DNA of 23,026 bases from a virus: positions 1 to 23,026 of the IMG/VR virus record IMGVR_UViG_3300007516_001751; one strand, written 5' to 3'. Position 1 is the stretch's first letter; each line of letters starts with the position of its first letter. Positions 1,009 through 16,093 of this stretch are shown piece by piece. The position numbers were made by a program, and so were the translations under genes. Under the pieces are notes generated by a model. It was not told the origin of the DNA. It did not search any database and saw nothing but the letters and a program-made list of their open reading frames with translations.

Positions 1009-1437
1009 ATGGTTGAGATTTTCAAAGACTATATTCCATCGATCCTGCATACAAAGCAGGATCATATGGTAGATGAAGATGCGGAGAAGGTGTATGCACC
1101 TTTTCTCATAAATAGGGCATTATCCCATCATTTTGATACCGTAATGATGGCAAATATGATGAATCTGTCATCAAATATTAGTAAAAGAATGCATTACGAC
1201 TTTCTTCTTGGTACTGTAAGGTCCGTAAAACGTCCGTTTAAGAAATGGCATAAATATATACAGCCTGATGATATTGATATCATTAAGGAAAACTATGACT
1301 GTTCAACCGAGAAGGCCTTGGAGATTCTAAAGCTTTTAACGGTAGATCAAGTACAGAGTATCAAGAATAAGACCAATAAAGGCGGTGTAGACAATGTTAG
1401 AAACCATGATCGAGGTAACACTAAAAACAAGAAATGA
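1009..1437 (+). CDS. 62: DNA polymerase clamp loader small subunit (T4 gp62-like)
   Basis: Small subunit of the T4-type clamp loader, which with the gp44 ATPase loads the gp45 sliding clamp for the replicative polymerase. Recognised by family-like blocks: KVYAPFLINRALSHHFDTV near residues 27-45, HYDFLLGTVRSVKRPFKKWH near 62-81, and ENYDCSTEKALEIL near 94-107 with a lysine-rich IKNKTNKGG segment after it. At 142 residues it is shorter than T4 gp62 (187). The ATG at 1009 has only a poor Shine-Dalgarno, which fits translational coupling to an upstream gene. In T4 that gene is 44, but here the upstream neighbour is a GC-rich methylase. The 3' end overlaps regA by 32 nt, matching the T4 order 62-regA. 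Confidence 0.85.
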   Translation: MVEIFKDYIPSILHTKQDHMVDEDAEKVYAPFLINRALSHHFDTVMMANMMNLSSNISKRMHYDFLLGTVRSVKRPFKKWHKYIQPDDIDIIKENYDCSTEKALEILKLLTVDQVQSIKNKTNKGGVDNVRNHDRGNTKNKK

Positions 1438-1780
1438 TTTTTTGGTAGTAAAAGAAACATTAACTCGAATCGGAGTTGCTTCTAAAAAAGATAATACTCT
1501 TTATCAATCATGCCATATACTTCATAAGCAAGGACAATATTTCATTGTTCATTTCAAAGAAATGTTTCTACTTGATGGTAAGAAATCAGATTTTACCCAG
1601 GAGGATATCGCGCGGCGAAATACTATTGCAAATCTATTACAAGAATGGAAACTACTTACATTAGTTGATCCTAAAAAAAGTTCAACGCCAGTTGTACCAG
1701 TATCATCATTAAAAATACTTCATGCTGACGAAAAAGTTGATTGGGATCTTTGTGTTAAATATACAATAGGTAAAAAATAA
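1406..1780 (+). CDS. regA: Translational repressor RegA
   Basis: RNA-binding repressor of the T4 family that binds near start codons of early phage mRNAs, including clamp and clamp-loader messages, and blocks translation. The protein is very close to T4 RegA in layout: MIEVTLKTRNDFLVVKETLT at the N-terminus, then LYQSCHILHKQGQYFIVHFK, KEMFLLDGKK, an acidic/arginine stretch EDIARRNTIANLL, and the ending VKYTIGKK. I chose ATG 1406, giving 124 residues, because T4 RegA begins MIEITL; an in-frame ATG at 1394 would add four residues. It overlaps the end of gene 62. In T4 the next gene is 43; here dut and a large inserted block intervene. Confidence 0.93.
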   Translation: MIEVTLKTRNDFLVVKETLTRIGVASKKDNTLYQSCHILHKQGQYFIVHFKEMFLLDGKKSDFTQEDIARRNTIANLLQEWKLLTLVDPKKSSTPVVPVSSLKILHADEKVDWDLCVKYTIGKK

Positions 1781-1792
1781 TGGAGATTTATA

Positions 1793-2299
1793 ATGACAAT
1801 TTTGAAAGTACACAAGACTCATGAAAACCACAATCTACCTGTATATGCTACCGAAAATTCAGCATGTTTCGATATTTCGTTTCAGTGTTTGGGTAAAACA
1901 TTTGTGACGGGGTTTGACCGCACTAGTCAGGCTATAACGCAAAATATTGAAAATGAAACTATTATACTTTATGCTGGTGATAGAATTTTGGTTCCCACAG
2001 GATTAATATTTATTCTCGATCCGGGCACAGTCTTAAAGCTTTATGCGAGAGGATCGACGGGAATCAAAAAAGGATTGCGACTAGCAAACTCGGTTGGTAT
2101 TATCGATGCCGATTACTTTCATGAAACATTTATACCTCTGGTAAACGATACGAATGTTAGTATCATCCTTACTCATGGCGATAGGTTGGCTCAGGCTGAA
2201 GTCTGCCGGTATGAAAAAATGACATTTGTTCAATCTCTTCTACCACCAGATCAAACTACTAACAGAGTAGGTGGGTTTGGCTCCACGGGTATCAACTAA
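1793..2299 (+). CDS. dut: dUTPase (deoxyuridine 5'-triphosphate nucleotidohydrolase)
   Basis: Hydrolyses dUTP to dUMP and pyrophosphate, keeping uracil out of phage DNA and supplying dUMP for dTMP synthesis. The five trimeric-dUTPase motifs are visible in order: ENSACFDI (residues 21-28), ARGSTG (85-90), GIIDADYFHE (102-111, with the catalytic Asp region), THGDRLAQ (127-134) and RVGGFGSTG (158-166, the P-loop-like tail). At 168 residues it is a little longer than the usual 140-155, from an insertion between motifs 1 and 2. The ATG at 1793 follows a GGAG at 1782-1785. It lies 12 nt after regA and is probably co-transcribed with it. Confidence 0.95.
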   Translation: MTILKVHKTHENHNLPVYATENSACFDISFQCLGKTFVTGFDRTSQAITQNIENETIILYAGDRILVPTGLIFILDPGTVLKLYARGSTGIKKGLRLANSVGIIDADYFHETFIPLVNDTNVSIILTHGDRLAQAEVCRYEKMTFVQSLLPPDQTTNRVGGFGSTGIN

Positions 2300-2939: not shown

Positions 2940-3707
2940 ATGAGCAAAATACCGTCCGCTATTGTTATAACCCCATCTATAAATTCCACGAAACTATATG
3001 ACGCCGTTGATTCTGTTGCGTCTCAAACCTACTGTGAACTAACCCATCTGATTGTTATGGATGGTATCATTCTTAGTGAATACCACAAACGAGAGTTGCA
3101 TAAAAGATCATTTAAGAACATTGCAGTTGTTGAACTACCTTTCAATACAGGAAAGGTTGACAATCAAAGCTTTTATGGTCATCGTATCTATGCTGGTTTT
3201 TCACAGTTGGTTAATGCCGATTATGTATTCTTTCTTGATGAAGATAACTGGTTTGATAACTTTCATGTCGAATCACTGATTGATCTTCTTGAGAGCAGAA
3301 AAGAACTTGACTTTGCCTATTCTCTGAGAGGAATATACAATAAAGATCGAGACTTTTTGATCAATGATAACTGCGAATCCTTGGGTAGATGGCCTATTTG
3401 GTGCACCCCTACGGATAAGTTGCAATATCTAATAGATACATCCTCCTTTTGTTTTAGGCATAACTTCATTAGAGATACTGGATGTTTATGGAACAGTGGT
3501 TGGGGTGGAGATAGACGATATCTATCTTTGGTTGCAGATAATGCCAAATTTGATACAACTGGTAAGCATACCCTATGCTACAGATTAGATGGTAATCCCA
3601 ACTCTGTAACTGAAGAATTCTTCATCGAGGGCAATCGAAGCGTCACAAACTCATATAAAAAGCTAAATTCAACGCATTTTCCTTGGGGAGAACCACTACC
3701 ACTATGA
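2940..3707 (+). CDS. GT2-like glycosyltransferase
   Basis: Probable GT-A-fold enzyme transferring a sugar from a nucleotide sugar to an unknown acceptor. The N-terminus IVITPSINSTKLYDAVDSVA followed by QTYCELTHLIVMDG is the GT2 nucleotide-binding start, and FFLDEDNWF (residues 98-105) supplies a DxD-type metal site with Asp100 and Asp102. SGWGGDRRYL (186-195) may be the acceptor or base region. At 255 residues it is a catalytic domain only, with no membrane helix visible. First gene of the sugar block; its stop overlaps the next ATG by 4 nt. The start at 2940 has GAGG 4 nt upstream. Donor and acceptor are unknown. Confidence 0.82.
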   Translation: MSKIPSAIVITPSINSTKLYDAVDSVASQTYCELTHLIVMDGIILSEYHKRELHKRSFKNIAVVELPFNTGKVDNQSFYGHRIYAGFSQLVNADYVFFLDEDNWFDNFHVESLIDLLESRKELDFAYSLRGIYNKDRDFLINDNCESLGRWPIWCTPTDKLQYLIDTSSFCFRHNFIRDTGCLWNSGWGGDRRYLSLVADNAKFDTTGKHTLCYRLDGNPNSVTEEFFIEGNRSVTNSYKKLNSTHFPWGEPLPL

Positions 3708-4462
3708 GTAACCTAGCCCAACTCGCTTATAGATTGAAAGATAACTCCAACACTTTGCATGATTCCGAGGAGTTCTTCAAATTCATTGTGTCCAACCTAA
3801 AGGAAACTCACTCTCAGTCTTTCCAGGACTTGTGGGTTGCATATGAGTCTTATCGTAATGATCCCCAATCCTGTGATACTAGATTCTATGTCGAATTCGG
3901 TGCGCATGACGGTCAGGATGGAAGTAATACTCTATTTTTGGATAACAAATACCTGTGGGATGGTTTATTGATTGAGCCAAATCCCCATACCTATAAGAAG
4001 CTGAATGCCCATTCACTAGAACATAGACTCGGTGGCTATGAGATAGAAAACAAGGCGATCTATGATGTTACTGGCGAACTGATGCCGTTTACGGCTACAC
4101 TTGACGACCATCAGTTTTCAACATTTAGTGAGAATCTGAGTCAGGTTCCCCGCGAACTAAGTCAAAATATTCAACATTTATTTGTCCATACTGCAACTCT
4201 CTATGATATTTTAGATATCTGGGATGCACCCAAGATTGTAGACTACGTTTCAATGGATACGGAGGGGTCTGAATATAGAATTTTGAAGAAGTTCTTAGAG
4301 GAAAACAAGAGCACATATAAGGTTGGTATGTGGACTATTGAGCATAACTACAAACCAGAAAGAGAATCTATTTATCAACTTATGATCGAGAATGGTTATA
4401 TTCGAAAATTTGAAGAATATAGCCGCTGGGATGATTTTTACATTTTAGGAGCTAAAGCATGA
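3704..4462 (+). CDS. FkbM-family SAM-dependent methyltransferase
   Basis: Probable O-methyltransferase acting on a sugar or other small acceptor. Family features: FYVEFGAHDGQDGSNT near residues 63-78 (SAM-binding motif I), GLLIEPNPHTYKKL (about 90-103), VSMDTEGSEYRILK near 180-193 (the FkbM hallmark) and WTIEHN further on. The first 60 residues, with FQDLWV, resemble the usual lead-in of the family. I use ATG 3704, which overlaps the preceding stop as ATGA; an upstream in-frame ATG at 3683 would add seven unlikely residues. FkbM enzymes often occur in polysaccharide clusters, which fits its place between two glycosyltransferase-like genes. The end overlaps the next start by 4 nt. Confidence 0.88.
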   Translation: MSNLAQLAYRLKDNSNTLHDSEEFFKFIVSNLKETHSQSFQDLWVAYESYRNDPQSCDTRFYVEFGAHDGQDGSNTLFLDNKYLWDGLLIEPNPHTYKKLNAHSLEHRLGGYEIENKAIYDVTGELMPFTATLDDHQFSTFSENLSQVPRELSQNIQHLFVHTATLYDILDIWDAPKIVDYVSMDTEGSEYRILKKFLEENKSTYKVGMWTIEHNYKPERESIYQLMIENGYIRKFEEYSRWDDFYILGAKA

Positions 4463-5466
4463 CATTTGAAGATACAAAAACTTTGACGGCCTATGAAGAG
4501 TCTGTCTGTAGTAATATTGTACTCACGCCCGAGGAGTTTGAGCCGGTCGACCTGGTTATCGGAGCCTTTGATGGTTATACCTGGAAAGATATAGAACCTT
4601 GGGTTGTATCTTTGGAGAGGTGCGGGTTCAAAGGAGAAAAGGCTGTCATTGCGTATAATGTCGAAGCCAGTGTGATTAAGAAGCTTGATGATAGAGGCTT
4701 TAAGGTCTATGCGTTTGGTTTTGACGACCGAGGAAATGCAAAGGCTGAAAACCTCCGTTCTATTGTGGTTGAAAGGTTTTTGCATCTATGGTCCATATTA
4801 TCACCACTTGAGGAAAAATATAGATACATCATTACAACAGATGTAAAGGATGTTATTTTCCAGAGTAATCCTATTGATTTACTTGAAACATTCTCACCTG
4901 ATGGTTTTGAAATCTTTGTGGCTGGCGAGGGTATTACTTATAATCAGGAGCCCTGGTCACGAAATAATATGGATATGACATTTGGTAATGTATTTTTGGA
5001 TCGCGTAAAATATAGGGAGATTTTCTGTGCTGGGGTTATCGGCGGCACTTCTACTCATTTTTTGGACTTGTGTATGAATATAGCTATGGTTTGTAGAGGA
5101 ATACCATGGTCCGTCCCTGGTGGCGGCGGCCCCGACCAAGCTGCATTGAATATATTACTGTCCCAACTAATATGGGAGAGAACCACGATGTTTTTTGATG
5201 TATGGTGGCCGTGGTGTCGCCATTGCGGTACAACCAAAGCGGCTATGGAAGCTGGTTCAGGGCAACTCGGATTTGAAGCCAAGAATAATCCTGATTTTGA
5301 TCCAAAATCCGTAGATTTTTTGTCTATGGATCCTGTGTTGGTGGATGGTAAGTTATGTATGATGAGGGGTTCCCCTCGGGGTAAAGAAGCCGTCCCTTAT
5401 GCTATAGTTCATCAATATAATCGAGTCCCAGCCTGGGCTAATCTTGCGGATAACTATCGTGAATAA
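4459..5466 (+). CDS. Putative GT-A-type glycosyltransferase, unassigned family
   Basis: I infer a glycosyltransferase from motifs, not from a known family. YRYIITTDVKDVIFQ (residues 121-135) resembles the DxD loop of GT-A enzymes (Asp128, Asp131). CAGVIGG (190-196) and VPGGGGPDQAALN (219-231) resemble the acceptor and DQ segments of GT8/GT6-type folds. HQYNRVPAW near the C-terminus could supply the late His metal ligand. Length is 335 residues; no signal peptide or membrane helix is seen. It overlaps the FkbM gene by 4 nt and the next methyltransferase by a few nt, so it is translationally coupled into the sugar operon. Alternative: a non-catalytic or differently acting member of this fold. 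Confidence 0.65.
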   Translation: MTFEDTKTLTAYEESVCSNIVLTPEEFEPVDLVIGAFDGYTWKDIEPWVVSLERCGFKGEKAVIAYNVEASVIKKLDDRGFKVYAFGFDDRGNAKAENLRSIVVERFLHLWSILSPLEEKYRYIITTDVKDVIFQSNPIDLLETFSPDGFEIFVAGEGITYNQEPWSRNNMDMTFGNVFLDRVKYREIFCAGVIGGTSTHFLDLCMNIAMVCRGIPWSVPGGGGPDQAALNILLSQLIWERTTMFFDVWWPWCRHCGTTKAAMEAGSGQLGFEAKNNPDFDPKSVDFLSMDPVLVDGKLCMMRGSPRGKEAVPYAIVHQYNRVPAWANLADNYRE

Positions 5467-6061
5467 TATATATACAGATCAAGATTTCAAAACTATCGAG
5501 CACCACCGAGACCTCGGTATATGGTCCCCGGATCATTACTCCTCAATAGGGTTGGCCCCATATATCAAAAGGTTGGGAAATGATATAGAGGGTATTGAGA
5601 TTGGTACAGGTAAAGGTGAGTCGGCCTATCTGTTGCTTGATCGATGCCCCAATATCAAGAAACTATACACTATAGACCCATTTTCTCAATGGGATAACTG
5701 GAACGGTACCGATACTCAAGAAGATCAGGATAGATTTAAGGAGATCGCTCATAATAACCTCCTAAAGTTTGGTAGTAGAGTAGAAATATTGGAATTAAGT
5801 TCTGCTGTTTGTATAGCGGAGGATGGGTTTGACCAGGAATCTATGGATTTCATTTTTATTGATGGGGATCCCTCTACCGAAAGTACAATGTTTGATCTGG
5901 CCAACTACTATCGATTACTTAAGGTAAAGGGAATGTTTGCAGGACACAACTTTCAGTTCAAGACCGTTTACGACGCCGTGCAAGAGTTTCGAAAGAAGTA
6001 TAATATCAATATACCGATTCAAAAATCAACAAACGGTACATATTTTTGGTATAAGGTGTGA
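5459..6061 (+). CDS. Class I SAM-dependent methyltransferase (Methyltransf_24-like)
   Basis: Probable small-molecule or sugar O-methyltransferase. GIEIGTGKGESAYLLLDRCP (near residues 44-63) is SAM motif I with the strand-2 Asp in YTIDPF. MDFIFIDGDPS is the motif usual in the Methyltransf_24 group, where the Asp binds metal or SAM. The LLKVKGMFAGHNF stretch corresponds to the post-III strand, and a basic RKKY segment follows. The start is uncertain: GTG 5459 overlaps the preceding stop and gives 200 residues, TTG 5444 adds five more, and no clear Shine-Dalgarno is present. It lies between two glycosyltransferase genes, suggesting it modifies the same glycan. Confidence 0.75.
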   Translation: MNNIYTDQDFKTIEHHRDLGIWSPDHYSSIGLAPYIKRLGNDIEGIEIGTGKGESAYLLLDRCPNIKKLYTIDPFSQWDNWNGTDTQEDQDRFKEIAHNNLLKFGSRVEILELSSAVCIAEDGFDQESMDFIFIDGDPSTESTMFDLANYYRLLKVKGMFAGHNFQFKTVYDAVQEFRKKYNINIPIQKSTNGTYFWYKV

Positions 6062-6063
6062 CA

Positions 6064-6990
6064 ATGGAAAAACCGCCACTTAGGTTATCATTTACTGATA
6101 CCTATGATAATGCAAAGAAGTTCTGGGTCTGGGCTCTAGGCACACGTTATGATGTTTCAGTCGTGGATCAAGACACGGATTTACTTATTTTTGGAGACCA
6201 AAACTTTGGTTCAGATCATTTGAGCCAAAAGTGGAATATCACCAAGAAGTTGTTTTTTACCGGGGAAAATGTCAGGGCGACATGGACTGAGTGTGATTAT
6301 TCCTGTGATTTCGATTACAACTTTAATGTACCAGAGAAACTTCATCGTTTCCATTATAGACTTCCCCTATACGTTTTGGAAATGTGGGCTTATATGGATC
6401 AGCACGGATATGCATTTGATTATTTGTATAACCGGCATGAGGGGGTGGATCTAGAGAAAGAATATGATATTAAAACCAGGTTCTGCTCATTTATCCAGTC
6501 TAATCCTAATGTAGAGGTGAGGAATCAAGTATTTCATTGGCTCAATAGTGTCCAAAGAGTGGATTCTGGGGGACCATTGTTTAATAATATGGGATATGTG
6601 GTTGATAGACCGGGTGGTCATATGAGTAAACATGACTTCATAAAGACTAGAAAGTTTAATCTGGCGTTTGAAAATGGTTCGCATATTGGATATACAACCG
6701 AGAAGCTACTCAATGCTTTCTATGCCAATGTCATTCCGATCTACTATGGTAATCCAGAAGTGGTATTGGATTTCAATAAAGAGGCATTTATCAATGTCCA
6801 TGATTTTGTTGGTAATGATGGGCGCATTAATGGTGATGCATTACTGAATAGTATCGCGATTCTTAATCTTCACAAAGGAATGTACCTTGACATGATGAGC
6901 AAAACAGTGTTTAATAGTAATAATACATCAACGGATATTATGAAACTGACAGACTGGTTTCATGAGAATGTTTATAAGGAGATTATGTAA
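6064..6990 (+). CDS. GT10-family glycosyltransferase (fucosyltransferase-like)
   Basis: Resembles alpha-1,3/4-fucosyltransferases, which transfer fucose from GDP-fucose to a GlcNAc- or glucose-containing acceptor. The C-terminal half carries the family hallmark: FNLAFENGSHIGYTTEKL followed by FYANVIPIYYGNPEV (around residues 196-233), where FEN, GYTTEK and IYYG line the donor site. The N-terminal half contains LIFGDQNFG and the LFFTGENVRATW element seen in the acceptor domain. At 308 residues from ATG 6064 it has GT10 length without the C-terminal heptad repeats of Helicobacter enzymes. AAGG at 6052-6055 supports ATG 6064; GTG 6058 is an alternative. No GDP-fucose synthesis genes are visible, so donor supply from the host is inferred. 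Confidence 0.85.
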   Translation: MEKPPLRLSFTDTYDNAKKFWVWALGTRYDVSVVDQDTDLLIFGDQNFGSDHLSQKWNITKKLFFTGENVRATWTECDYSCDFDYNFNVPEKLHRFHYRLPLYVLEMWAYMDQHGYAFDYLYNRHEGVDLEKEYDIKTRFCSFIQSNPNVEVRNQVFHWLNSVQRVDSGGPLFNNMGYVVDRPGGHMSKHDFIKTRKFNLAFENGSHIGYTTEKLLNAFYANVIPIYYGNPEVVLDFNKEAFINVHDFVGNDGRINGDALLNSIAILNLHKGMYLDMMSKTVFNSNNTSTDIMKLTDWFHENVYKEIM

Positions 6991-7235
6991 TGAAAAAGAT
7001 TTTTCTAAAGTTGAGCATGATTGAAACCAAGAATGATATTTATATCGACCCATTTGAAATCGTGTCATTTGTGGAAAAAACTGAACGTTCTGGTAGAATG
7101 GATAATGACGGTAAGTTCGAGCCGTCGATAACTTTTGTAGAACTTCACACCAAGACCGGTGCGCTGATCAAGGTTATTGCCACGGGACAGGGTATTGTTG
7201 ACTTGATCAACCAAGCCAATGAAATCAATGTCTAA
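6990..7235 (+). CDS. Small hypothetical protein, 81 aa
   Basis: Not recognised. It is a compact, probably beta-rich protein: KIFLKLSMIETKNDIYIDPFE at the start (split here as KIFLKLS and NDIYIDPF), then ITFVELHTKTGALIKVIATG, ending in a short helix GIVDLINQANEI. The layout resembles small phage proteins that state a setting or threshold domain, but no function can be assigned. It starts within TAATG at the stop of the GT10 gene and overlaps the next gene, so it is made from the sugar operon mRNA. It is the only obviously non-enzymatic gene inside the block. Confidence 0.6.
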   Translation: MKKIFLKLSMIETKNDIYIDPFEIVSFVEKTERSGRMDNDGKFEPSITFVELHTKTGALIKVIATGQGIVDLINQANEINV

Positions 7236-8250
7236 ACGATTACTCTTTGTTGTTCACCGATACGCGCCGTTTCCGGGCGGTTCGGAGTACTATGTGCAAA
7301 ATATGGCGGAAGAAGCCCTATCCCGAGGCTATGACGTTACGGTCTTGACTCATGAACACCAAGGAGACCTTAATGGGGTCAAGGTGATAGATGATTATTC
7401 CGTACTGACCAGAGAAAAATGGGGTCTTATCATAGTTCATGGTGGGGACGTAATAAGTCAAAATATTGTTCATTATTACTCGGAAGAGATTAAACAACTA
7501 TCTCCCATTCTTTACCTTATTGTGAAGCCTTCATCCAGCGTCACCTGCCTTAAAGGTATGAAAAATGCAACCTATCTGGGTTGCTCAACCATCGAAGATG
7601 TTGACCATTGTGTTTCTAATGGTTATAAGGATAAGATCGTCAGTGTGAGGCATGGTATTCCGGTCGAAAAGTCAATAGTGCCAAAGACTTGGGTTACCCC
7701 CTTTGTGCATTTTTCTTCCGTGGGTGGGTTTTGGAACCATAAGAGGTTCCCTGAGTTGGCCGCGACGTTCATACGAGTAACTAAGAAATACCCCCATACT
7801 CGGTTGCATCTATATGGATATGGTGGGGATGATATAAAGAACATACCTTCCCATCCTAATATTTCTATAGTACAAGGTGCTGACCATGATAAGATATTGG
7901 AAGTTATCGCGAATTCTGACATATACATCATGAATTCCAGTGAAGAAGGTTTCGGTCTTGTGTTGCTGGAAGCAATGATAAATCGGACGCCATGGTTTGC
8001 CAGAAGCATTGCCGGCGCCAAGGTATTGAGAGAATATGGAAGTTTATACACAACCCAAGACCAACTAGAGTACTTGATGGAAATGTATGTCAAATTCAAG
8101 TTATATATGTCTGAAACCGGGGACGCGGCCGACTTTGAGTCTGATAAGGATATAGCATTTTCACATATAAGGTTGAACCATGATATAAAAAATACAGTTA
8201 ATGATGTGGAGGCGGTTTTGATCAAATATACAAGGACAAAGAGATACTAA
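7219..8250 (+). CDS. GT4-family glycosyltransferase (GT-B fold)
   Basis: Transfers a sugar from a nucleotide sugar, retaining mechanism expected for GT4. RLLFVVHRYAPFPGGSEYYV at the N-terminus is the classic glycine-rich acceptor loop. HGIPVEKS, then FSSVGGFWNHKRFPELAATF and LHLYGYGGDD belong to the C-terminal Rossmann domain. SSEEGFGLVLLEAM (about residues 236-249) is the E-x7-E donor motif, followed by a helix-capping PWFARSIAG. Length of 343 residues is normal. The start could be ATG 7219 or ATG 7228; neither has a clear Shine-Dalgarno and both overlap the upstream gene, so coupling is likely. It ends in TAATG with the next gene. Confidence 0.9.
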   Translation: MKSMSKRLLFVVHRYAPFPGGSEYYVQNMAEEALSRGYDVTVLTHEHQGDLNGVKVIDDYSVLTREKWGLIIVHGGDVISQNIVHYYSEEIKQLSPILYLIVKPSSSVTCLKGMKNATYLGCSTIEDVDHCVSNGYKDKIVSVRHGIPVEKSIVPKTWVTPFVHFSSVGGFWNHKRFPELAATFIRVTKKYPHTRLHLYGYGGDDIKNIPSHPNISIVQGADHDKILEVIANSDIYIMNSSEEGFGLVLLEAMINRTPWFARSIAGAKVLREYGSLYTTQDQLEYLMEMYVKFKLYMSETGDAADFESDKDIAFSHIRLNHDIKNTVNDVEAVLIKYTRTKRY

Positions 8251-9053
8251 TGCAAATAAGTTTTGGTGTTTGCGCCGGCTCTACTCAATATTTGGATATT
8301 CTCCTGGATAGTATCGTGGATACACTAAGAATTGCTCCATTTTATAACTTTGGAGATGGATATGAAATTTTGGTGATTGGTAATCAAGATGTATGCGCCT
8401 GGATTTCACATAATTCTAATAGACACCCTAAAGTATACAAAACTATACTGTTTGAGGATGAACGGCCGGGTTGGATCACGCGAAAGAAAAATATCTTAGC
8501 AAAGAAGGCAAAGTATCAAAACCTGTGTATAATGCACGACTATGCACTATTAGATGAACAGTGGATGAGTGGTGTTATCAATACTGATCGTAATGGCGAT
8601 TGGCAAGTTATGATCAATAAGGTGCAAAATCGCAATGGTACAAGGCATGCCGATTGGATTGTTGATCCAAAATATATGCAAACGGTGATCAATACTGATC
8701 CAGTTAGATTTACTAATATGCTTATGGCAGTAGCTCCTCATGAGAACGGACCTCTTTATGTCAATTCGTTACCCTATGATGTAACGGATCTTACTCATAT
8801 ACAATATGTTTCTGGAGGTTTCTTCGTGGTTAAAAAGGAGGTTCTACTCGAATATCCTTTTGATGAATCAATGATTTGGGGGGACAGTCCTGGGGAAGAT
8901 ATAGTTTGGTCTAATGATTTGAGAAAAGCCGATAAAATAATACGGTTTAACTCTCAATCATCGGTAACGTTGCAAAAACCTGGTAAGTGGCAAGTTGAAG
9001 TTATGCCAGAAGAATTTGTTAATGAACTAAGAAAATATTACGGTAGTCGTTGA
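8250..9053 (+). CDS. GT2-like glycosyltransferase
   Basis: Probable GT-A glycosyltransferase. ISFGVCAGSTQYLDILLDSI is the N-terminal nucleotide-binding strand and helix. GWITRKKNILAKKAKYQNLC followed by IMHDYALL (residues 94-101) matches the K-N...HDY arrangement in GT2-like enzymes, where HDY replaces the classic DxD. YVSGGFFVVKKEVLLEYPF and then GDSPGEDIVWSNDLR carry the acidic ED of the acceptor or base region. It is 267 residues with no membrane segment. The ATG at 8250 shares its A with the preceding stop (TAATG). Donor and acceptor are unknown. A second gene at 12291 has a similar catalytic-domain-only build. Confidence 0.82.
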   Translation: MQISFGVCAGSTQYLDILLDSIVDTLRIAPFYNFGDGYEILVIGNQDVCAWISHNSNRHPKVYKTILFEDERPGWITRKKNILAKKAKYQNLCIMHDYALLDEQWMSGVINTDRNGDWQVMINKVQNRNGTRHADWIVDPKYMQTVINTDPVRFTNMLMAVAPHENGPLYVNSLPYDVTDLTHIQYVSGGFFVVKKEVLLEYPFDESMIWGDSPGEDIVWSNDLRKADKIIRFNSQSSVTLQKPGKWQVEVMPEEFVNELRKYYGSR

Positions 9054-9073
9054 CACAAAAGGTATATGAAAAT

Positions 9074-10453
9074 ATGAAAAACTATCAAACTCTTGTAATC
9101 TTTGATCTAGATGGAGTCTTAATCGACAGTAGAGATATGCACTTTGATACATTAAATAAGGCTTTGGCTTTGGTTGATTCGAAATATGTCATATCTCGTG
9201 AATCGCATCTCGCATCATATGATGGTTTATCCACAACAAAAAAGTTAGAAATGCTTCATCACTCCAAGGGATTGGATAGAGATACTTTCGACTATATATG
9301 GTATCATAAACAGTTATATACCGCAGAGGCCTTGGAGAATCTAAAGCCTGATACCGAACTTATTGATATTTGTTTATGGTTGTTAGAGCAGAATATCGTC
9401 ATTGCTGTTGCTTCCAATGCAGTAAGAAAAACTGTGGATAAGACATTGGAAAAACTAGGAATCGCTAGATATATCTCAAATATCAAAACAAATGAAGATA
9501 CAACTAAAGGAAAGCCATACCCAGACCTATATTGGAGGGCGATGTTTGATGCTCATGCAATACCATCGACAACTATAATCATTGAGGATAGCCATATCGG
9601 TAGAGCCGGCGCGATAGATTCGGGAGCTAAACTATTGGCGGTAGAGAGTAGAGGAGATTTGACGTTTGATAAGATTCGGAATGCTGTTGCTGAATTACAG
9701 GGGGCGCCAAAACAATCTATTCCTTGGATAGACAAGAAGCTGAACGTTGTTATACCAATGGCGGGAGCCGGTTCTAGATTTGCCAAGGCTGGTTATACTT
9801 TTCCTAAACCCCTCATCGAGGTTAATGGAAAACCAATGATACAGGTTGTTGTTGAAAATCTCAATATTGAAGCAAACTATATCTATATCGTCCAAAAAGA
9901 ACATTATGAAAAGTATCATTTAGGATACCTACTCAATCTTATAACTCCTGGTTGCAAGGTGGTGCAGATAGACGGTATGACCGAGGGGGCGGCATGTACT
10001 GTATTGAAGGCCGCTGAATATATAAACAATGATTTACCTCTATTGATTGCAAACTCTGATCAATTCATGGAGTGGAATTCTAATGAATGTATGTATGCCT
10101 TTGCAGCCGACCAGATTGATGGTGGAATTTTGACGTTTAAGTCAACACACCCAAAGTGGTCGTATGTGAAGTTGGATGATAATGGATTTGTTTCTGAGGT
10201 CGCAGAAAAAAAGGTTATTTCTGATGATGCAACCGTTGGTGTATACTACTGGAGACGTGGCTCCCAGTTTGTTGATTCGGCGAAACTAATGATCGAAAAT
10301 GACGAAAGAGTGAATGGGGAGTTTTACGTTGCTCCAGTATATAACTACGCTATCAAGGCCGGCCGTAAGATTCGCATTAAGGCTGTTGATAAACTATGGG
10401 GACTCGGGGTACCGGAGGATTTGGATACATTTTTGAGGGAGTATAAGTGTTGA
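9074..10453 (+). CDS. HAD phosphatase-nucleotidyltransferase fusion
   Basis: A two-domain sugar-nucleotide enzyme. Residues 1 to about 215 form a HAD hydrolase: FDLDGVLIDS (10-19, nucleophile and acid Asp), ASNA (113-116, motif II), KGKPYPD (motif III Lys) and IIEDSHIGRAGA (169-180, motif IV). Residues about 223-459 form an NTP-transferase domain: VVIPMAGAGSRFAKAGY with PKPLIEVNGKPM, then TEGAACTVL and IANSDQF (metal Asp). Inference: one domain dephosphorylates a sugar or polyol phosphate and the other couples a sugar-1-phosphate to a nucleotide. ATG 9074 is preferred; TTG 9050 would overlap the previous stop and add eight residues. It is the clearest donor-synthesis gene in the block. The exact sugar and nucleotide are unknown. 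Confidence 0.9.
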   Translation: MKNYQTLVIFDLDGVLIDSRDMHFDTLNKALALVDSKYVISRESHLASYDGLSTTKKLEMLHHSKGLDRDTFDYIWYHKQLYTAEALENLKPDTELIDICLWLLEQNIVIAVASNAVRKTVDKTLEKLGIARYISNIKTNEDTTKGKPYPDLYWRAMFDAHAIPSTTIIIEDSHIGRAGAIDSGAKLLAVESRGDLTFDKIRNAVAELQGAPKQSIPWIDKKLNVVIPMAGAGSRFAKAGYTFPKPLIEVNGKPMIQVVVENLNIEANYIYIVQKEHYEKYHLGYLLNLITPGCKVVQIDGMTEGAACTVLKAAEYINNDLPLLIANSDQFMEWNSNECMYAFAADQIDGGILTFKSTHPKWSYVKLDDNGFVSEVAEKKVISDDATVGVYYWRRGSQFVDSAKLMIENDERVNGEFYVAPVYNYAIKAGRKIRIKAVDKLWGLGVPEDLDTFLREYKC

Positions 10454-10770
10454 TCAGCAAGAATTTAAGTGACTTTACCCGAGGATGGGTAGTCGGAGAT
10501 TTCAAGCCAAGTTTATTTCAATCGAAGGATGTGGAAATAGGGTTACATTATTATCGAGAAGGGGAGGATCATCCGGCTCATTACCACAGAGAAGTTACTG
10601 AATATAATGTTGTTATCTCTGGAGTTGCTACTGTTAATGGTGCAACCTTTGTAGCCTCTGATATATTCATCATAGAAAAAGGTGAAGTGACTGAAATCGA
10701 ATTTTTAACGGATACATATATATTATGTATAAAGACACCCTCGGTACCTGGTGATAAAGTTTTAGTTTAA
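10447..10770 (+). CDS. Cupin-domain protein
   Basis: Small single-domain cupin, 107 residues. HPAHYHREVTEYNVVISG (near residues 41-58) has the HxH...E cupin 1 metal-binding pattern, and the later GEVTEIEFLTDTYILCIKTP forms the second barrel half with a weak cupin 2 motif. Such proteins may act as sugar isomerases or epimerases, or be structural; which applies here is unclear. The start is GTG 10447 or TTG 10450, both overlapping the stop of the fusion enzyme, which implies coupled translation. Its place right after the nucleotidyltransferase suggests it acts on the same sugar (inference). Confidence 0.78.
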   Translation: MLISKNLSDFTRGWVVGDFKPSLFQSKDVEIGLHYYREGEDHPAHYHREVTEYNVVISGVATVNGATFVASDIFIIEKGEVTEIEFLTDTYILCIKTPSVPGDKVLV

Positions 10771-10786
10771 GGAGAAGGAGATAATA

Positions 10787-11473
10787 ATGACTGATATAAT
10801 TAAGCAATTTTGGGAGAACCAGGCTTCTGGTTGGTCTCCAGAGAACAGAAACCCTCTAGTGGGGTGGTATGATGAGCATAATGCCGACGAAACGGAACAA
10901 AAGCTTTTGTTCCGCGGCGTAAAGACTGATGGTAGTTTGGTTGCTCTGGAATATGGCTGCGGTCCTGGTAGAAACATTATTAAACATAAGGATTTATTCG
11001 CTAGAATTGATGGGGTCGATATCAACAGAACAATACTCGACAAAGCCTCGGATTTCCTAAAGGATAATAATATTAATGATGTGTATTTGTTTCATACTAA
11101 TGGATTTGAATTGAATGGTCAGTATTGTGATATCAAATCAACGACTTATGATGTTGTATTTTCGATTATCTGTTTACAACATATAGGTTCCTGGGAATGG
11201 AGACAGTCTCTATGGAATGAGTTTTACAGAGTATTGAAACCCAAGGGGGTTTTGACATTCCAAATGGGGTACGGTCCTGGACACCCTATCTCGGTGGATT
11301 ATTTCCATAATTATGACGAAACTGACGACATGCATAGAGATGTTAGAATAGAGAGCGAAGGGTACCTGGTTGATGACCTTAGAAAAGCCGGTTTCAAGGA
11401 CATTACTCTAGAGATCACTAATCCGACGCATGATCAGCACCCCCATTGGATTTGGGTACAAGCAAGGAAGTAA
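10787..11473 (+). CDS. Class I SAM-dependent methyltransferase
   Basis: Probable small-molecule methyltransferase. ALEYGCGPGRNIIKH (near residues 53-67) is SAM motif I, IDGVDIN supplies the strand-2 Asp, YDVVFSIICLQHI is motif II with the QHI signature, and RVLKPKGVLTFQMGYG is motif III. The end, HPHWIWVQARK, is the terminal beta hairpin. At 228 residues it is a normal catalytic-domain length. The start is certain: a strong AAGGAGAAGGAG lies just before ATG 10787. The following gene carries a closely similar motif set and looks like a tandem paralogue. Probably methylates a sugar or sugar nucleotide made by this operon (inference). Confidence 0.85.
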   Translation: MTDIIKQFWENQASGWSPENRNPLVGWYDEHNADETEQKLLFRGVKTDGSLVALEYGCGPGRNIIKHKDLFARIDGVDINRTILDKASDFLKDNNINDVYLFHTNGFELNGQYCDIKSTTYDVVFSIICLQHIGSWEWRQSLWNEFYRVLKPKGVLTFQMGYGPGHPISVDYFHNYDETDDMHRDVRIESEGYLVDDLRKAGFKDITLEITNPTHDQHPHWIWVQARK

Positions 11474-11475
11474 TT

Positions 11476-12294
11476 ATGAAAGCAAATTATACGAGAATAA
11501 CAGTAGAATCAGACGGATACAACTACCATTTTTACGGTAGTGATGTATCGCGATATGACGAGCAAATGATAGCCTATGCTCAAATGGCCAAGAGGTTTAT
11601 GAATAAACCTTTCAACTCACCTTTGGATATAGTCGGTAACTACGACTGGCACCAAGAATTTCCCTATGAGGAGCATTTATTTAAGCATCTCGATAAACCA
11701 GTAGTTGCGGGATCACTAGTGATTGATTTTGGTTGTGGTCCGGGTAGAATGGTTGAGCGTATAACCAAGTATTTTGGAGAGGCTGTTCATGGAATAGACA
11801 TTTCGGAGTATGCTATAGATTATGCGAGAAATCAGTTTCCCGACTCCAGATTTTTTGTTTCTTCTGGTATAGACGTGGGTGCAGTCCCAGAAAACACCTA
11901 TGATGTGTTGTATTCCACGATTGCAATACAACACATTCCCGTCAAAACAATACGAGAGAATTTGTTTCGAGCATTCTATAATACCTTAAAACCAGGAGGG
12001 TTTATCTGTATTCAAATGGCTTATAATGCCAACCAACAGGCTGGTGTGTGGTCGCCAGATACAGAACATGCATCGTATGATTCTGATTTTTGGAATGCAA
12101 AAGCCACAAATGGTCACGCCGATTGTGTATTGAATGCCGAATCGATGCCTAGATTTGAAGAGGATTTCGGAAAAATCTTTAATAATGTCAAGGTTGAATT
12201 GGTTGATGTTGCTGCAAAATATGGAAATCTAAACGGTAAATACCATGCTCCATATTGGGCCAGCGACTGGGTATTCATAAGTGGTACGAAATGA
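11476..12294 (+). CDS. Class I SAM-dependent methyltransferase (paralogue of preceding gene)
   Basis: A second methyltransferase of the same type, 272 residues. VIDFGCGPGRMVERI is motif I, GIDISEYAIDYA strand 2, YDVLYSTIAIQHIPV motif II, and TLKPGGFICIQMAYN motif III. It shares GCGPGR, the IxxQHI block and the FQM/IQM block with the gene upstream, supporting duplication or a shared origin. It has an added N-terminal stretch of about 70 residues containing YGSDVSRYDEQM and a C-terminal APYWASDWVFISG. I use ATG 11476, with AAGGAAG 5-11 nt upstream; an in-frame ATG at 11446 falls inside the previous gene. It overlaps the next glycosyltransferase as ATGA. Confidence 0.85.
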   Translation: MKANYTRITVESDGYNYHFYGSDVSRYDEQMIAYAQMAKRFMNKPFNSPLDIVGNYDWHQEFPYEEHLFKHLDKPVVAGSLVIDFGCGPGRMVERITKYFGEAVHGIDISEYAIDYARNQFPDSRFFVSSGIDVGAVPENTYDVLYSTIAIQHIPVKTIRENLFRAFYNTLKPGGFICIQMAYNANQQAGVWSPDTEHASYDSDFWNAKATNGHADCVLNAESMPRFEEDFGKIFNNVKVELVDVAAKYGNLNGKYHAPYWASDWVFISGTK

Positions 12295-13076
12295 ATATAG
12301 ATTTCTGGATTTTAACATTTGAGAGACCCTTAGCTCTCGATAGATTAATAACACAATTCGGGAAACAGGGAGTTAAAGTTAATGTATTTTCGAATTCTCC
12401 TCATATTGAACTGAATAAAAGTACATTTGAAACTTATAGTCCATCCATAATAGTGAATTCTCTTAATGACAGAAACTCTAGTTCATGGTGTGCTCGTGCA
12501 TGGAATTCTATTTTCCTTAAGGGGTTTCAAAATTCTGATGCGCTAGTTTGTATACAAGACGATACCAATATATCTGATGACTTTATCGAATGGTTGGAGA
12601 ATGTTTCGCAGCAAAATGACTTCATTTCGGGACCGGCTGGTGACCAATTTTTCTACATTCATAAGAAGGTGTTTCAAAAAATAGGTTGGTGGGATGAACG
12701 TTATCTTGGTTGTTATTGTGGTGATGCTGATTATTTTAAGAGAGTATATTTAGGATATGATAAAACCCGGGTATCCATACAAGACACCCATAACTGGGGC
12801 ACCATTTACAATCCCTGTGGAGTAATGGATAGCATCATTACTACGTTTGAGTCAAAGACTATTGATCCAAATTATGATAATCAGCACTGGGTTCTAGAGA
12901 AACTATGTGAAAGTAATCCTACACTACAGCATTCACAAGGTTGGTATAGAAGAAAATGGGGAATCGATCTTGACATTAATGCTTCATTTATATGCAATGG
13001 TGTAGATAAAATAGAATCAGATGTAAACTGGTACCCTTCTCACAGTAAAATATTAGGAGTTACAGCATATGACTAG
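12291..13076 (+). CDS. GT2-like glycosyltransferase
   Basis: Probable GT-A glycosyltransferase. IDFWILTFERPLALDRLITQ at the N-terminus is a GT2 start, VCIQDDTNISDDFIEWL (around residues 82-98) provides the acidic metal-binding cluster, and GWWDERYLGCYCGDADYFKR corresponds to the conserved base region with GDADY. The C-terminus, with GWYRRKWG, is not recognised. At 261 residues it is a single catalytic domain without membrane helices. ATG 12291 overlaps the preceding stop by 4 nt and is preferred to an ATG at 12255 inside the methyltransferase gene. It overlaps the next gene by 8 nt. Confidence 0.8.
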   Translation: MNIDFWILTFERPLALDRLITQFGKQGVKVNVFSNSPHIELNKSTFETYSPSIIVNSLNDRNSSSWCARAWNSIFLKGFQNSDALVCIQDDTNISDDFIEWLENVSQQNDFISGPAGDQFFYIHKKVFQKIGWWDERYLGCYCGDADYFKRVYLGYDKTRVSIQDTHNWGTIYNPCGVMDSIITTFESKTIDPNYDNQHWVLEKLCESNPTLQHSQGWYRRKWGIDLDINASFICNGVDKIESDVNWYPSHSKILGVTAYD

Positions 13077-13749
13077 AATTATTGCACATAGAGCCAACCT
13101 GGACCTTCCAAACATATCTAAGCACTTGGGAATGAAAGAAAAAATCTTGGCCTGTATAGATGCAGGATTTTTTGTTGAGTTAGACGTCCGCGCGAAAGAG
13201 CCTGCACATTCGGTGATTTATACTGATTATTACAGAGATACTTTAATACAAATACAGAAATTCATGATCAGTCATGATCTGTATCCTAATACAGAGCCGT
13301 TATCATTTGAAGATGTTTATATTTCTACGAAAATCTATGAGAAGGCGTATTATCATGCTAAGGATATAAAGTCGGCTCAATTATTAGAAAGACTAACCAA
13401 TAGCCGGCCGGCGGAGACGCCCCCGCATGGCTGGTGTGCCTTGGCGCCGCGGTGGTTTGCGCAAGATAAGGACAAGTTTAGTATTGTGCGGGCAGGGTAT
13501 CCGAATGATTCGAATGGGTTTAATTCCTATGATCTGCAAGTTTGGATAAATGCCACGGATAGAACGAGGCCTCTACGAGAAGAACTTGAGGGATATCAAC
13601 GTGAAGGTGTTGATTTGTCGTCTGCGATTATTTGTCTGAATGATTATATTGAATCGGACTCTGCCACACTACGAATTTTGAATACATGTTCCGGTGTTTG
13701 TGTGGATCGGCCTTTTCTATATGAGACACTTTTGAAGGCCTATAAATGA
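13069..13749 (+). CDS. Glycerophosphodiester phosphodiesterase-like (GDPD/PLC-barrel) protein
   Basis: Resembles the GDPD family: TRIIAHRANLDLPN (residues 2-15, the HR catalytic pair with His7), then ILACIDAGFFVELDVR (26-41) with the metal-binding E-x-D (Glu37, Asp39), and a closing GVCVDRPF, like the family's last strand. True GDPDs hydrolyse glycerophosphodiesters to glycerol-3-phosphate and an alcohol. The middle is divergent and the second catalytic His is not clear, so activity is uncertain. At 226 residues it is near the small end for the family. A short GC-rich patch at about 13402-13460 (encoding SRPAETPPHGWCALAPRW) stands out from the AT-rich surroundings. Within a glycan operon it could act on a phosphodiester-linked substituent (inference). 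Confidence 0.65.
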   Translation: MTRIIAHRANLDLPNISKHLGMKEKILACIDAGFFVELDVRAKEPAHSVIYTDYYRDTLIQIQKFMISHDLYPNTEPLSFEDVYISTKIYEKAYYHAKDIKSAQLLERLTNSRPAETPPHGWCALAPRWFAQDKDKFSIVRAGYPNDSNGFNSYDLQVWINATDRTRPLREELEGYQREGVDLSSAIICLNDYIESDSATLRILNTCSGVCVDRPFLYETLLKAYK

Positions 13750-14936
13750 GAACTGTGGTTGTTATTGGTGCGGCTGGTCACGTCGGATTGCCGTTTTGCC
13801 TTACTCTGGCCCAAGCCGGGTTTGCCGTTACTGGTATAGATCGAAATGAAAAGCTTATTGCATCGCTAGATGATGGATTTTATCCCTATATTGAAGATAA
13901 TGGCCAGGAAACGCTAAAGAAGTATCTTGGCAAAAACCTCATGTTTACTAATAGTTATTACCATATTCAAAAAGCGGATGTGGTTGCAATCATGATCGGC
14001 ACACCCAAGGATGAAAATGGTAATCCTAGAATTGATGACTTGATGCAGTTTGTCCGAGAAGAGTTGATTACCAGAATTGGTGCCTATACACTAATCATAT
14101 TACGGTCGACGGTGATTCCTGGTACCACGGATCTTATCATTAGAGAAATAGAGGAGTTGCGTCCTGATCTTAAAGAAGGTATTAATTTTGAAGTAGCATT
14201 CTGTCCTGAGCGTGTCCAACAAGGCAAATCTTTGGTTGAAGCTGTTGATTTACCTCAACTTATTGGTACTCATCGAGACCTCGAAAGTGATAAACACAGT
14301 GAGGCATATAAGTTCTTCTCTACCTTTGTCAAGGAATGTATTCCGTTAACGCCAAAGGAGGCAGAGTATGCCAAACTGGTGACAAATATGTACCGATATG
14401 TTAACTTCGCTCTAGCCAACGAGGTTTATATGTTGACAAGAGATCAGAATGTTGATATAGTAAGAGTTATTGATGCGGCTAATAAAGACTATCCGAGAAT
14501 GAACATGCCAAAACCTGGACCCGCCGCAGGTCCTTGCCTTGGAAAGGATGGAGAGTTTCTTCTTCAAAACATGCCTTTCTCTGGTCTTATCAGTTCTGCT
14601 AGTCGAATCAACGAGGGTTTACCAGCCTTCTTACTAAATGAAGCCCTGAAACAAAACCCTGATATTCGTACCTTATGCATTCTAGGAATGACGTTCAAAG
14701 CGAATTCTGATGATATTCGGAATAGTCTAAGCTTCAAGCTAAAAACATTGGCTGAAAGTAAAGGTATCAAGGTTTATTATAACGACCCCTACTGGGAAAG
14801 TAATATTGAGTTACGACGTATTTGGGAGCACGACGCGACGATTATCATGACCCCTCATGACCAGTTTAAGGGGTTATCCAAATGGTTTGTACCAGGACCG
14901 GTACTAATAGATATATGGGGGATTTCAAATGCCTAG
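13746..14936 (+). CDS. UDP-glucose/UDP-ManNAc-type nucleotide-sugar 6-dehydrogenase
   Basis: NAD-dependent oxidation of a UDP-hexose C6 alcohol to the uronic acid in two steps. VVVIGAAGHVGLPF (residues 4-17) is the Rossmann NAD motif, STVIPGTT (121-128) and AFCPERVQQG (151-160) are family blocks, and EAEYAKLVTNMYRYVNFALA (206-225) holds the catalytic Lys and Asn. PGPAAGPCLGKD contains the active-site Cys264. The C-terminal UDP-binding domain is present (GMTFKANSDDIRNS, then DPYW). At 396 residues it is full length. PGPxxGPCL is nearer the WecC/ManNAc-dehydrogenase style than the UDP-glucose style, but the substrate is not fixed. Overlaps its neighbours by 4 and 8 nt. Confidence 0.9.
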   Translation: MRTVVVIGAAGHVGLPFCLTLAQAGFAVTGIDRNEKLIASLDDGFYPYIEDNGQETLKKYLGKNLMFTNSYYHIQKADVVAIMIGTPKDENGNPRIDDLMQFVREELITRIGAYTLIILRSTVIPGTTDLIIREIEELRPDLKEGINFEVAFCPERVQQGKSLVEAVDLPQLIGTHRDLESDKHSEAYKFFSTFVKECIPLTPKEAEYAKLVTNMYRYVNFALANEVYMLTRDQNVDIVRVIDAANKDYPRMNMPKPGPAAGPCLGKDGEFLLQNMPFSGLISSASRINEGLPAFLLNEALKQNPDIRTLCILGMTFKANSDDIRNSLSFKLKTLAESKGIKVYYNDPYWESNIELRRIWEHDATIIMTPHDQFKGLSKWFVPGPVLIDIWGISNA

Positions 14937-15915
14937 AGTGCTTGTCACTGGATCAGAAGGAAGCCTAATGCAGGCGGTGATTCCGAAACTGCTGGCTCTT
15001 GGTCATGATGTTTATGGTGTCGATAAAGTGTTTCGCAAGTCACATCGAAATGCTGGCTATCATTACAAGGTGATCAATCTGACACGACCATTTGAGGTGG
15101 ATGATCATTTCAACGAGTATGATTTTGATTATGTCATTCAAGCGGCCGCTCAAGTTTATGGTGTTGGAGGGTTCAACCAATACTGTGCGGATATTGTATC
15201 CAATGATACGACACTACATTCAAACATACTGAATTCTTCAATTAGATATGATGTAAAGCGAGTGATATTCATTAGCTCTAGTATGGTGTATGAGAGCGTT
15301 CAAAAAGCAATCAATGAGACTTCCCTTGAAGGCGACCCCGATAAGTGGCCGGCCCCTAAGACAGATTATGGTCTTTCCAAGTTCTTTAACGAAAGGTTGA
15401 GTTTATCGTTTGAAAAACAGCATGGTCTGGACTATACTATTTGGAGACCATTTAACGTTATTACACCCTATGAAATAGCCCATGATACTCCTGGTTATGC
15501 CCATGTTTTTGCAGACTTCATTCGTTCCATTATAACAGAGGGTAAAAACCCTATACCCATCATAGGTGATGGTGAGCAAGTCCGTTGTTTCACTTGGATT
15601 GATGAAGTGGCGGCCGCCATCGCAAACTTTAGCTTTGATGGCAAAACTCGAAATGAAGTATTCAACTTGGGTAGGAAAGAACCTATCACTATGAAAACTT
15701 TGGCTAATCTGATATACGATGCCGCCAAAGAAGCTTATCTAAGTGATTCTGGAAAGTTGAAGTTTGAGACTGTTGAAAATTTCAAAAATGATGTGACTAT
15801 CAGGATTCCAAATGTTGATAAAGCCAAGAACATATTAGGCTGGGAAGCAATCAAGAGTGCCAGATGGTCAGTCAAGCAATGTGTAAATGAGTATTACAAG
15901 AACGTGAAATGGTGA
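14929..15915 (+). CDS. Extended SDR nucleotide-sugar epimerase/dehydratase
   Basis: NAD(P)-dependent enzyme acting on a nucleotide sugar, as an epimerase, dehydratase or reductase. VLVTGSEGSLMQAVI (residues 4-18) is the SDR dinucleotide loop, slightly divergent in its third glycine. YVIQAAAQVYGVGGFNQY (68-85) and SSSMVYES follow, with catalytic Ser116-118 region and YxxxK at Tyr147-Lys151 (TDYGLSKFFNE). RPFNVITPYE and a RCFTWIDEVAAAI block complete the extended SDR layout. At 328 residues it is full length. Last gene of the sugar block; after it comes a 200-nt gap with a promoter and a tRNA. With the upstream dehydrogenase it may supply an unusual uronic acid or deoxysugar donor (inference). 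Confidence 0.9.
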   Translation: MPRVLVTGSEGSLMQAVIPKLLALGHDVYGVDKVFRKSHRNAGYHYKVINLTRPFEVDDHFNEYDFDYVIQAAAQVYGVGGFNQYCADIVSNDTTLHSNILNSSIRYDVKRVIFISSSMVYESVQKAINETSLEGDPDKWPAPKTDYGLSKFFNERLSLSFEKQHGLDYTIWRPFNVITPYEIAHDTPGYAHVFADFIRSIITEGKNPIPIIGDGEQVRCFTWIDEVAAAIANFSFDGKTRNEVFNLGRKEPITMKTLANLIYDAAKEAYLSDSGKLKFETVENFKNDVTIRIPNVDKAKNILGWEAIKSARWSVKQCVNEYYKNVKW

Positions 15916-15971: not shown

Positions 15972-16000
15972 TTGACAAGGGGCCATCATTCTGCTATGAT
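15972..16000 (+). promoter_or_regulatory. Sigma70-like promoter upstream of tRNA
   Basis: TTGACA (15972-15977) and TATGAT (15995-16000) are separated by a 17-nt spacer. The expected start near 16007 is 10 nt before the tRNA-like gene. The preceding 56 nt after the SDR stop hold no recognised element. The promoter would drive the tRNA and the metallophosphoesterase cluster after it. Confidence 0.75.
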
Positions 16001-16016
16001 AGTACCTACTTAATAT

Positions 16017-16093
16017 GACTCAGTGCGCTGGAACGGTTACAGCACGGTCTGCAAAACCAAAGAATGCAGGTTCGAATCCTGTCTGGGTCTCCA
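16017..16093 (+). tRNA. tRNA-Cys(GCA)-like gene
   Basis: The 77-nt element folds as a tRNA with acceptor stem GACTCAG/CTGGGTC (one G-T wobble), discriminator T73 and encoded CCA. The T arm is GCAGG-TTCGAAT-CCTGT, and the D arm is GCTG/CAGC with a GG in the loop. The anticodon loop CTGCAAA gives GCA, which reads UGC/UGU. T73 and GCA together fit tRNA-Cys identity. The anticodon stem is weak, with only three clean pairs (GGT/ACC) followed by C-A and A-A mismatches, and spacing around positions 10 and 26 is irregular. It is either a functional but divergent phage tRNA or a decaying one. Confidence 0.75.

Follow-up and report, generated by a model that had tools for sequence, protein, structure and literature searches.

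A predicted glycan-assembly island between regA and gene 43 of uncultured T4-like phages

Results

Sixteen packed genes in a T4-like replication block

The DNA analyzed here, referred to as the window, is a single virus record of 23,026 bases (IMG/VR IMGVR_UViG_3300007516_001751), and our subject is a gene island at positions 2940-15915 that appears to be devoted to glycan assembly. Sixteen plus-strand open reading frames (ORFs) fill this interval, with neighbors that overlap or sit at most 16 nucleotides (nt) apart, just as the initial annotation of the sequence had described. They encode six glycosyltransferase (GT)-like enzymes, four S-adenosylmethionine (SAM) methyltransferases, a HAD-nucleotidyltransferase fusion (HAD-NTP), a cupin, a UDP-sugar dehydrogenase, an SDR enzyme, a GDPD-like protein and one small protein.

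On the left, the island is bordered by gp62, regA and the dUTPase gene dut (1009-2299, plus strand; PHROG 225, 242 and 135), while the DNA polymerase gene gp43 (18610-21168, plus strand; PHROG 262, 4e-291) forms the distal border of the interval, with UvsX, also one of the T4-like flanks, beyond it. From the end of regA (1780) to the start of gp43 (18610) the distance is 16.8 kb versus 78 bp in T4, in line with the separation of about 17 kb noted earlier for two genes that are contiguous in T4. In 27 other viral contigs without island genes this interval spans 0.6-9.7 kb; among named phages, it measures ~2 kb in pelagiphage Mosig, where it is free of GTs, and 5.7 kb in DLP_6, where it holds a sulfotransferase. 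The GC content of the island (0.397) matches that of its flanks (0.37-0.41). RegA is closest to that of a Stenotrophomonas phage (63%), followed by a pelagiphage and an OM43 phage (58-60%), and gp43 to those of cyanophages (46%). The photosystem gene psbA was absent from 16 relatives, five of them of at least 167 kb, the window itself being a genome fragment.

The right border (15972-16090, plus strand) consists of a sigma70-like promoter (15972-16000) and a tRNA gene (16017-16090). The promoter-like element reads TTGACA-17-TATGAT; the tRNA gene scored 38.8 bits with Rfam and carries the anticodon GCA by eye, and ARAGORN reported no tRNA gene in the window. A relative (L086) has a tRNA-Gly at the equivalent border.

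Enzymes of the frame and the cassette

Families were assigned by Pfam, NCBIfam and PDB profile searches, and AlphaFold models of GTx4459 and GT12255 were compared by Foldseek, these two proteins being assigned by fold and not by PDB profile search. Seven of the genes, all on the plus strand like the rest of the island, constitute a shared frame (GT2-GTx-MT24-GT10-GT4 ... UGDH-SDR). The first encodes a GT2 glycosyltransferase (2940-3707; PF00535, 5e-7) with a DED motif at residue 100, whose homologues, ~50% identical, stand directly after regA/dut in relatives. It is followed by an FkbM-type SAM methyltransferase (3683-4462; PF05050, 2e-13; homologues in the relatives L086 and L176) and by the second frame gene, GTx4459 (4459-5466), a GT6-like glycosyltransferase of GT-A fold. 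GTx4459 had no Pfam match and, like the GDPD-like protein, none in PDB profile searches; its AlphaFold model (AF2; pLDDT 88) adopts a GT-A fold, and the best PDB fold matches were the GT6 family alpha-1,3-GalT/BoGT6a (E 1e-10 to 1e-8; GT6 enzymes 1.6e-10). The third frame gene, MT24, encodes a Methyltransf_24 SAM methyltransferase (5444-6061; PF13578, 4e-12) that is present in 55 of 80 GTx loci, and the fourth a GT10 alpha-1,3-fucosyltransferase-like enzyme (6058-6990; PF00852, 6e-13; FucT_N PF18025, 6e-12) with an EKLLNA motif. After a small protein with no family match (6990-7235) comes the fifth, a GT4 glycosyltransferase (7219-8250; PF13692, 3e-11). The frame resumes at the far end of the island with a UDP-sugar 6-dehydrogenase (UGDH, 13746-14936; TIGR03026, 5e-73; PDB 4r16, 3e-47), which has its catalytic cysteine in GPCLGKD, and an SDR epimerase/dehydratase (14929-15915; Epimerase PF01370, 2e-38; PDB epimerases) with a YGLSK motif.

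The intervening cassette opens with x8250 (8250-9053), a glycosyltransferase-like protein by its profile match to the PDB glycosyltransferase 6p61 (E 7e-4), which lies near HAD-NTP in 36 of 80 HAD-NTP loci. HAD-NTP itself (9050-10453; HAD_2 PF13419, 2e-24, and PF12804; PDB 4evw, 5e-17), a HAD phosphatase fused to a nucleotidyltransferase, has at least 513 viral relatives; its matches to HddC-like and RmlA-like enzymes are without exception too weak to name the sugar that it makes. The adjoining cupin (10447-10770; Cupin_2 0.0098, below the cut-off) is likely its partner in the sugar pathway and occupies the same position in another contig (L177). Two class I SAM methyltransferases follow, MT10787 (10787-11473; PF13649, 1e-12) and MT11446 (11446-12294; PF13649, 6e-16; 64% identical in L086), and then GT12255 (12255-13076; 50% in L086), a glycosyltransferase whose model has a GT-A fold (pLDDT only 67) and matches GT-A enzymes in Foldseek at E 8e-6. 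Weak PDB profile matches of GT12255 to solute-binding proteins were taken as chance. The GDPD-like protein (13069-13749) retains the H/R, E-x-D and H residues, as read from an alignment with cyanophage and Prochlorococcus homologues, which themselves adjoin HAD or HAD-NTP genes.

Catalytic motifs are intact in the enzymes checked, and a simple hydropathy scan gave no convincing membrane-spanning segment in the island proteins, values above 1.6 occurring only in HAD-NTP and UGDH, where the sequence is part of a soluble fold. The gene classes read from the sequence at the outset were all recovered: GT-like enzymes of differing folds by Pfam, PDB profiles and fold models, four methyltransferases and a GDPD-like protein by domain searches and residue alignment, and the four nucleotide-sugar genes, the cupin among them at its sub-threshold score. 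Our literature search found no described pathway that combines HAD, cupin, nucleotidyltransferase and GDPD functions.

The island recurs at the same place in relatives

Many uncultured relatives carry the same island in the same genomic position. A profile scan with GTx4459 retrieved at least 587 viral relatives, and the frame was surveyed in 128 loci with a GTx4459 gene, corresponding to 83 clusters at 95% nt identity. The start of the island follows regA in 17 distinct 95%-nt clusters, and 30 of the 37 loci that contain at least four frame genes have them in the conserved order. Two relatives (L086 and L176) repeat the order of the window (GT2, FkbM, GTx, MT24, GT10, GT4, x8250, HAD-NTP, methyltransferase, GT12255, UGDH, SDR) up to gp43, and in L176 gp62, regA and dut also stand upstream, so that both borders are seen. 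The synteny comparison proposed in the initial annotation therefore placed the module in the regA/dut-gp43 interval of independent viral contigs, and the suspicion that the block might be a chimeric host contig fails. A scan of viral contigs with UGDH returned no matches, its peptide patterns being too specific, and GTx4459 had no match in 369 cellular genomes from the class to which Methylophilaceae LSUCC0401 belongs, a search without a positive control that shows little.

Two short contigs from other metagenomes (L002 and L003), 100% identical to gp43 of the window, end short of the island; the window phage has probably been sampled more than once.

A constant frame with a variable middle

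The locus is organized like an O-antigen locus, with constant ends, a variable middle, and nucleoside diphosphate (NDP)-sugar enzymes and several GTs in one operon. The junction between GT4 and UGDH is empty (0-35 nt) in 13 of the 16 clusters that have both genes; the other three hold a HAD-NTP cassette there (2.2 kb in L194, 4.9 kb in L086 and 5.4 kb in L176); in the window the gap is 5.5 kb and likewise holds the cassette. In other contigs (L088, L148 and L110), HAD-NTP is found with GTx, GT4, x8250, MT10787/MT11446 and GT12255 downstream of both gp43 (~8-10 kb away) and uvsX, so the cassette appears to move as a set. In a Falkowbacteria contig (L175), immediately after HAD comes a single ORF with both cupin and NTP homologies, which ties HAD and NTP to the cupin. 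This contig, from a metagenome-assembled genome of the candidate phyla radiation, carries HAD, cupin, NTP, two x8250, GT10 and GT4 homologues in one cluster.

The frame genes are 39-52% identical between relatives and the window, compared with 42-43% for gp62 and dut and ~46% for gp43. Because this divergence matches that of the replication genes and the GC content of the island matches its flanks, the frame is an old resident locus and not a recent insertion. The description of the module as inserted holds relative to T4 and does not extend to recent arrival; the old locus has a secondary cassette nested inside it.

Genes flanking the replication block

The neighboring gp44-gp62 junction also takes up genes: in one relative (L196) a DNA methylase gene (3193-4008) separates gp44 from gp62, and in another (L186, ~3314-3733) the junction holds an ORF that resembles an HNH endonuclease by eye. 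In the window, positions 1-984 hold a DNA methyltransferase gene of 65% GC versus ~40% elsewhere, directly before gp62 where gp44 would be expected; it is most closely related to genes of EBPR siphovirus 2 and a Caulobacter phage, and is either a recent acquisition or a chimeric end. Directly after gp43, an MT-A70-like adenine methylase with a DPPW motif, identified by eye, occupies 21159-21746, and the matching place in pelagiphage Mosig is taken by a putative adenine methyltransferase. At ~22720-23026, UvsX appears to be split by an intein-like sequence (GGGCLVAGT...), inside which the contig ends; this stretch alone matches other PHROGs (helicases, DNA polymerase).

Partner genes of known glycan pathways are missing in relatives

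We searched relatives for the partner genes of surface-polysaccharide and DNA-glycosylation pathways. Initiating sugar-phosphate transferases (PF02397, PF00953) were absent from 13 relatives, with LSUCC0401 as a positive control for PF00953; Wzx flippases (PF01943) were absent from 13 + 10 relatives, with positive controls; and Wzy polymerases or ligases (PF04932, Wzy_C) were absent from 13 relatives, in a search that a divergent Wzy could escape. The initial annotation had judged the gene set complete enough for a dedicated glycan, which does not hold for a self-sufficient surface polysaccharide. A T4 gp42-type dCMP hydroxymethylase was not found in 25 of 26 relatives by a search that detects T4 gp42, the single PF00303 match (305 amino acids, 3e-106) looking like a thymidylate synthase, and no island GT matched DNA-glucosyltransferase families in family searches.

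Discussion

These results support a module dedicated to a glycan or methylated sugar in the regA-43 interval of a T4-like phage, presumably one of aquatic bacteria, and this phage-resident island of soluble enzymes probably builds a methylated sugar chain. Tentatively, and stopping just short of calling it probable, we favor a methylated, uronate-containing oligosaccharide that is assembled in the cytoplasm on a virion protein. From the enzyme families we infer the following course. HAD-NTP, with the cupin, would activate a sugar-1-phosphate; UGDH would oxidize a UDP-hexose to the uronate, which the SDR enzyme may epimerize or decarboxylate. About six soluble GTs would then assemble the oligosaccharide in the cytoplasm, and the four methyltransferases would add O-methyl groups to it as caps or decorations. 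A shared stem would come from the conserved frame (GT2, GTx, MT24, GT10, GT4, UGDH and SDR), while the cassette between GT4 and UGDH would alter the outer sugars, much as happens in O-antigen loci. The glycan would be placed on a virion protein ahead of particle assembly, in the way proposed for chlorovirus capsids.

A virion protein is the most likely acceptor because no lipid-carrier initiator, flippase, polymerase or ligase was found, and the phage-encoded GTs that virion protein glycosylation needs are present. By contrast with the phage relatives, the cellular HAD-NTP homologue of LSUCC0401 does have a flippase-family gene and a PF00953 gene beside it. There are precedents: the GTs of PBCV-1 are mostly soluble, cytoplasmic and early, and together with methyltransferases build the capsid glycan (PMC9614988), while mycobacteriophage GTs glycosylate capsid and tail-tube proteins (Freeman et al. 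2023, as cited in PMC12619734).

Several points weigh against this assignment. No acceptor protein was identified; the absence of partner genes comes from relatives, the window's own genome being incomplete; and the phage could draw on the lipid carriers and flippase of its host. The island sits within the replication block, where early host-takeover genes are also located, and no T4-type late promoter (TATAAATA) was found upstream of it in the window and six relatives; this lends no support to late expression, and the promoter test does not decide the target. In print, moreover, pelagimyophage GTs have been read as modifying the O-chain (PMC7029224).

The last two points lead to a serious, if somewhat less probable, alternative, namely that the GTs and methyltransferases modify lipid-linked O-antigen or core precursors of the host early in infection and block the adsorption of other phages, with host initiator, flippase and ligase borrowed. 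The placement among replication genes without an upstream late promoter fits this, a variable middle suits rapid change of a surface antigen, and the published interpretation of pelagimyophage (PMC7029224) and cyanophage (PMC9602691) GT clusters is of this kind. A cellular HAD-NTP homologue in LSUCC0401 also sits in a surface-polysaccharide-type cluster, with PF01943 flippase-family and PF00953 transferase genes. Relatives, however, lack an initiator, a flippase and a Wzy_C-type polymerase or ligase, and with no membrane protein in the island the entire path must lean on the host system.

Phages with sugar-modified hydroxymethylcytosine exist, and the closeness of GTs and a sugar-nucleotide dehydrogenase to the DNA polymerase gene could suggest that the sugars end up on modified bases in the phage genome, the arrangement in T4 or RB69-type phages. 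We consider this target, which the initial annotation had listed, improbable: 25 of 26 relatives lack a gp42-type dCMP hydroxymethylase, the one PF00303 match is thymidylate-synthase-like (hydroxymethyl-dU routes fall outside this search), and none of the island GTs matched a DNA-glucosyltransferase family. That a bacterial polysaccharide locus was fused to a phage contig by misassembly is hardly conceivable, since a chimeric end could be imagined in the 65% GC first kilobase (versus 40% elsewhere) but island GC equals that of the flanks, and independent viral contigs with the same order and borders rule out a chimeric host contig for the island.

Clusters of GTs are already known in T4-like phages (PMC7029224, PMC9602691). 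The isolated cyanophages B23, S-CAM9, S-PRM1, S-8S53/55/56 and DSL-LC03 are T4-like and encode a full-length HAD-NTP fusion 49-60% identical to that of the window, and their clusters share GTs and an epimerase with the island, some also a GDPD-like and a HAD gene. In four inspected records, however, these clusters lie away from regA-gp43 (near psbA/nrd, or near tRNA and hli genes), and their other annotated GTs are unlike those of the island, with no GTx4459 or GT12255 homologue in those phages. The host-recognition-cluster GTs of T4-like pelagimyophages (PMC7029224) are similar in being accompanied by a UDP-glucose 6-dehydrogenase in a variable region but are mainly found beside tail-fiber genes or in scattered pairs and triplets, with GT8 dominant, whereas the island lies between regA/dut and gp43 instead of in the tail-fiber host-recognition region.

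PBCV-1 and giant viruses share soluble cytoplasmic GTs, sugar-nucleotide enzymes, sugar methyltransferases, early expression and capsid decoration; CroV has a cluster of GT, UGDH and methyltransferase genes. These are viruses of eukaryotes and the analogy is functional only, although GTx4459 also shows weak fold matches to giant-virus GTs. Mycobacteriophages, which are different phages, resemble the proposed system in using phage GTs on capsid and tail-tube proteins. Bacterial O-antigen and capsule loci share the constant ends, the variable middle and the GTs with NDP-sugar enzymes but differ in that the relatives of the island are without initiator, flippase and polymerase. The regA-gp43 site and the two-layer architecture look new relative to the known cyanophage and pelagimyophage glycan clusters, and we found no description of a conserved regA-gp43 island with a constant frame and an exchangeable cassette in the open-access literature (subscription papers lay outside the search).

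It is possible, though we regard it as rather doubtful, that an uncultured aquatic T4-like lineage keeps its own O-antigen-style locus at a set position among the replication genes, with a constant frame and an exchangeable cassette, and uses it to glycosylate virion proteins in the cytoplasm, giving rise to glycan serotypes. If the target is the virion, these would be lytic phages with swappable glycan coats, with a bearing on adsorption, grazing, antibody recognition and superinfection, and virion glycosylation would be extended to T4-like phages. If it is the host surface, the island would be a compact tool set for remodeling the surfaces of aquatic bacteria. With either target, a fixed locus whose junction is either empty or filled is an easy marker to use when metagenomes are surveyed for such systems.

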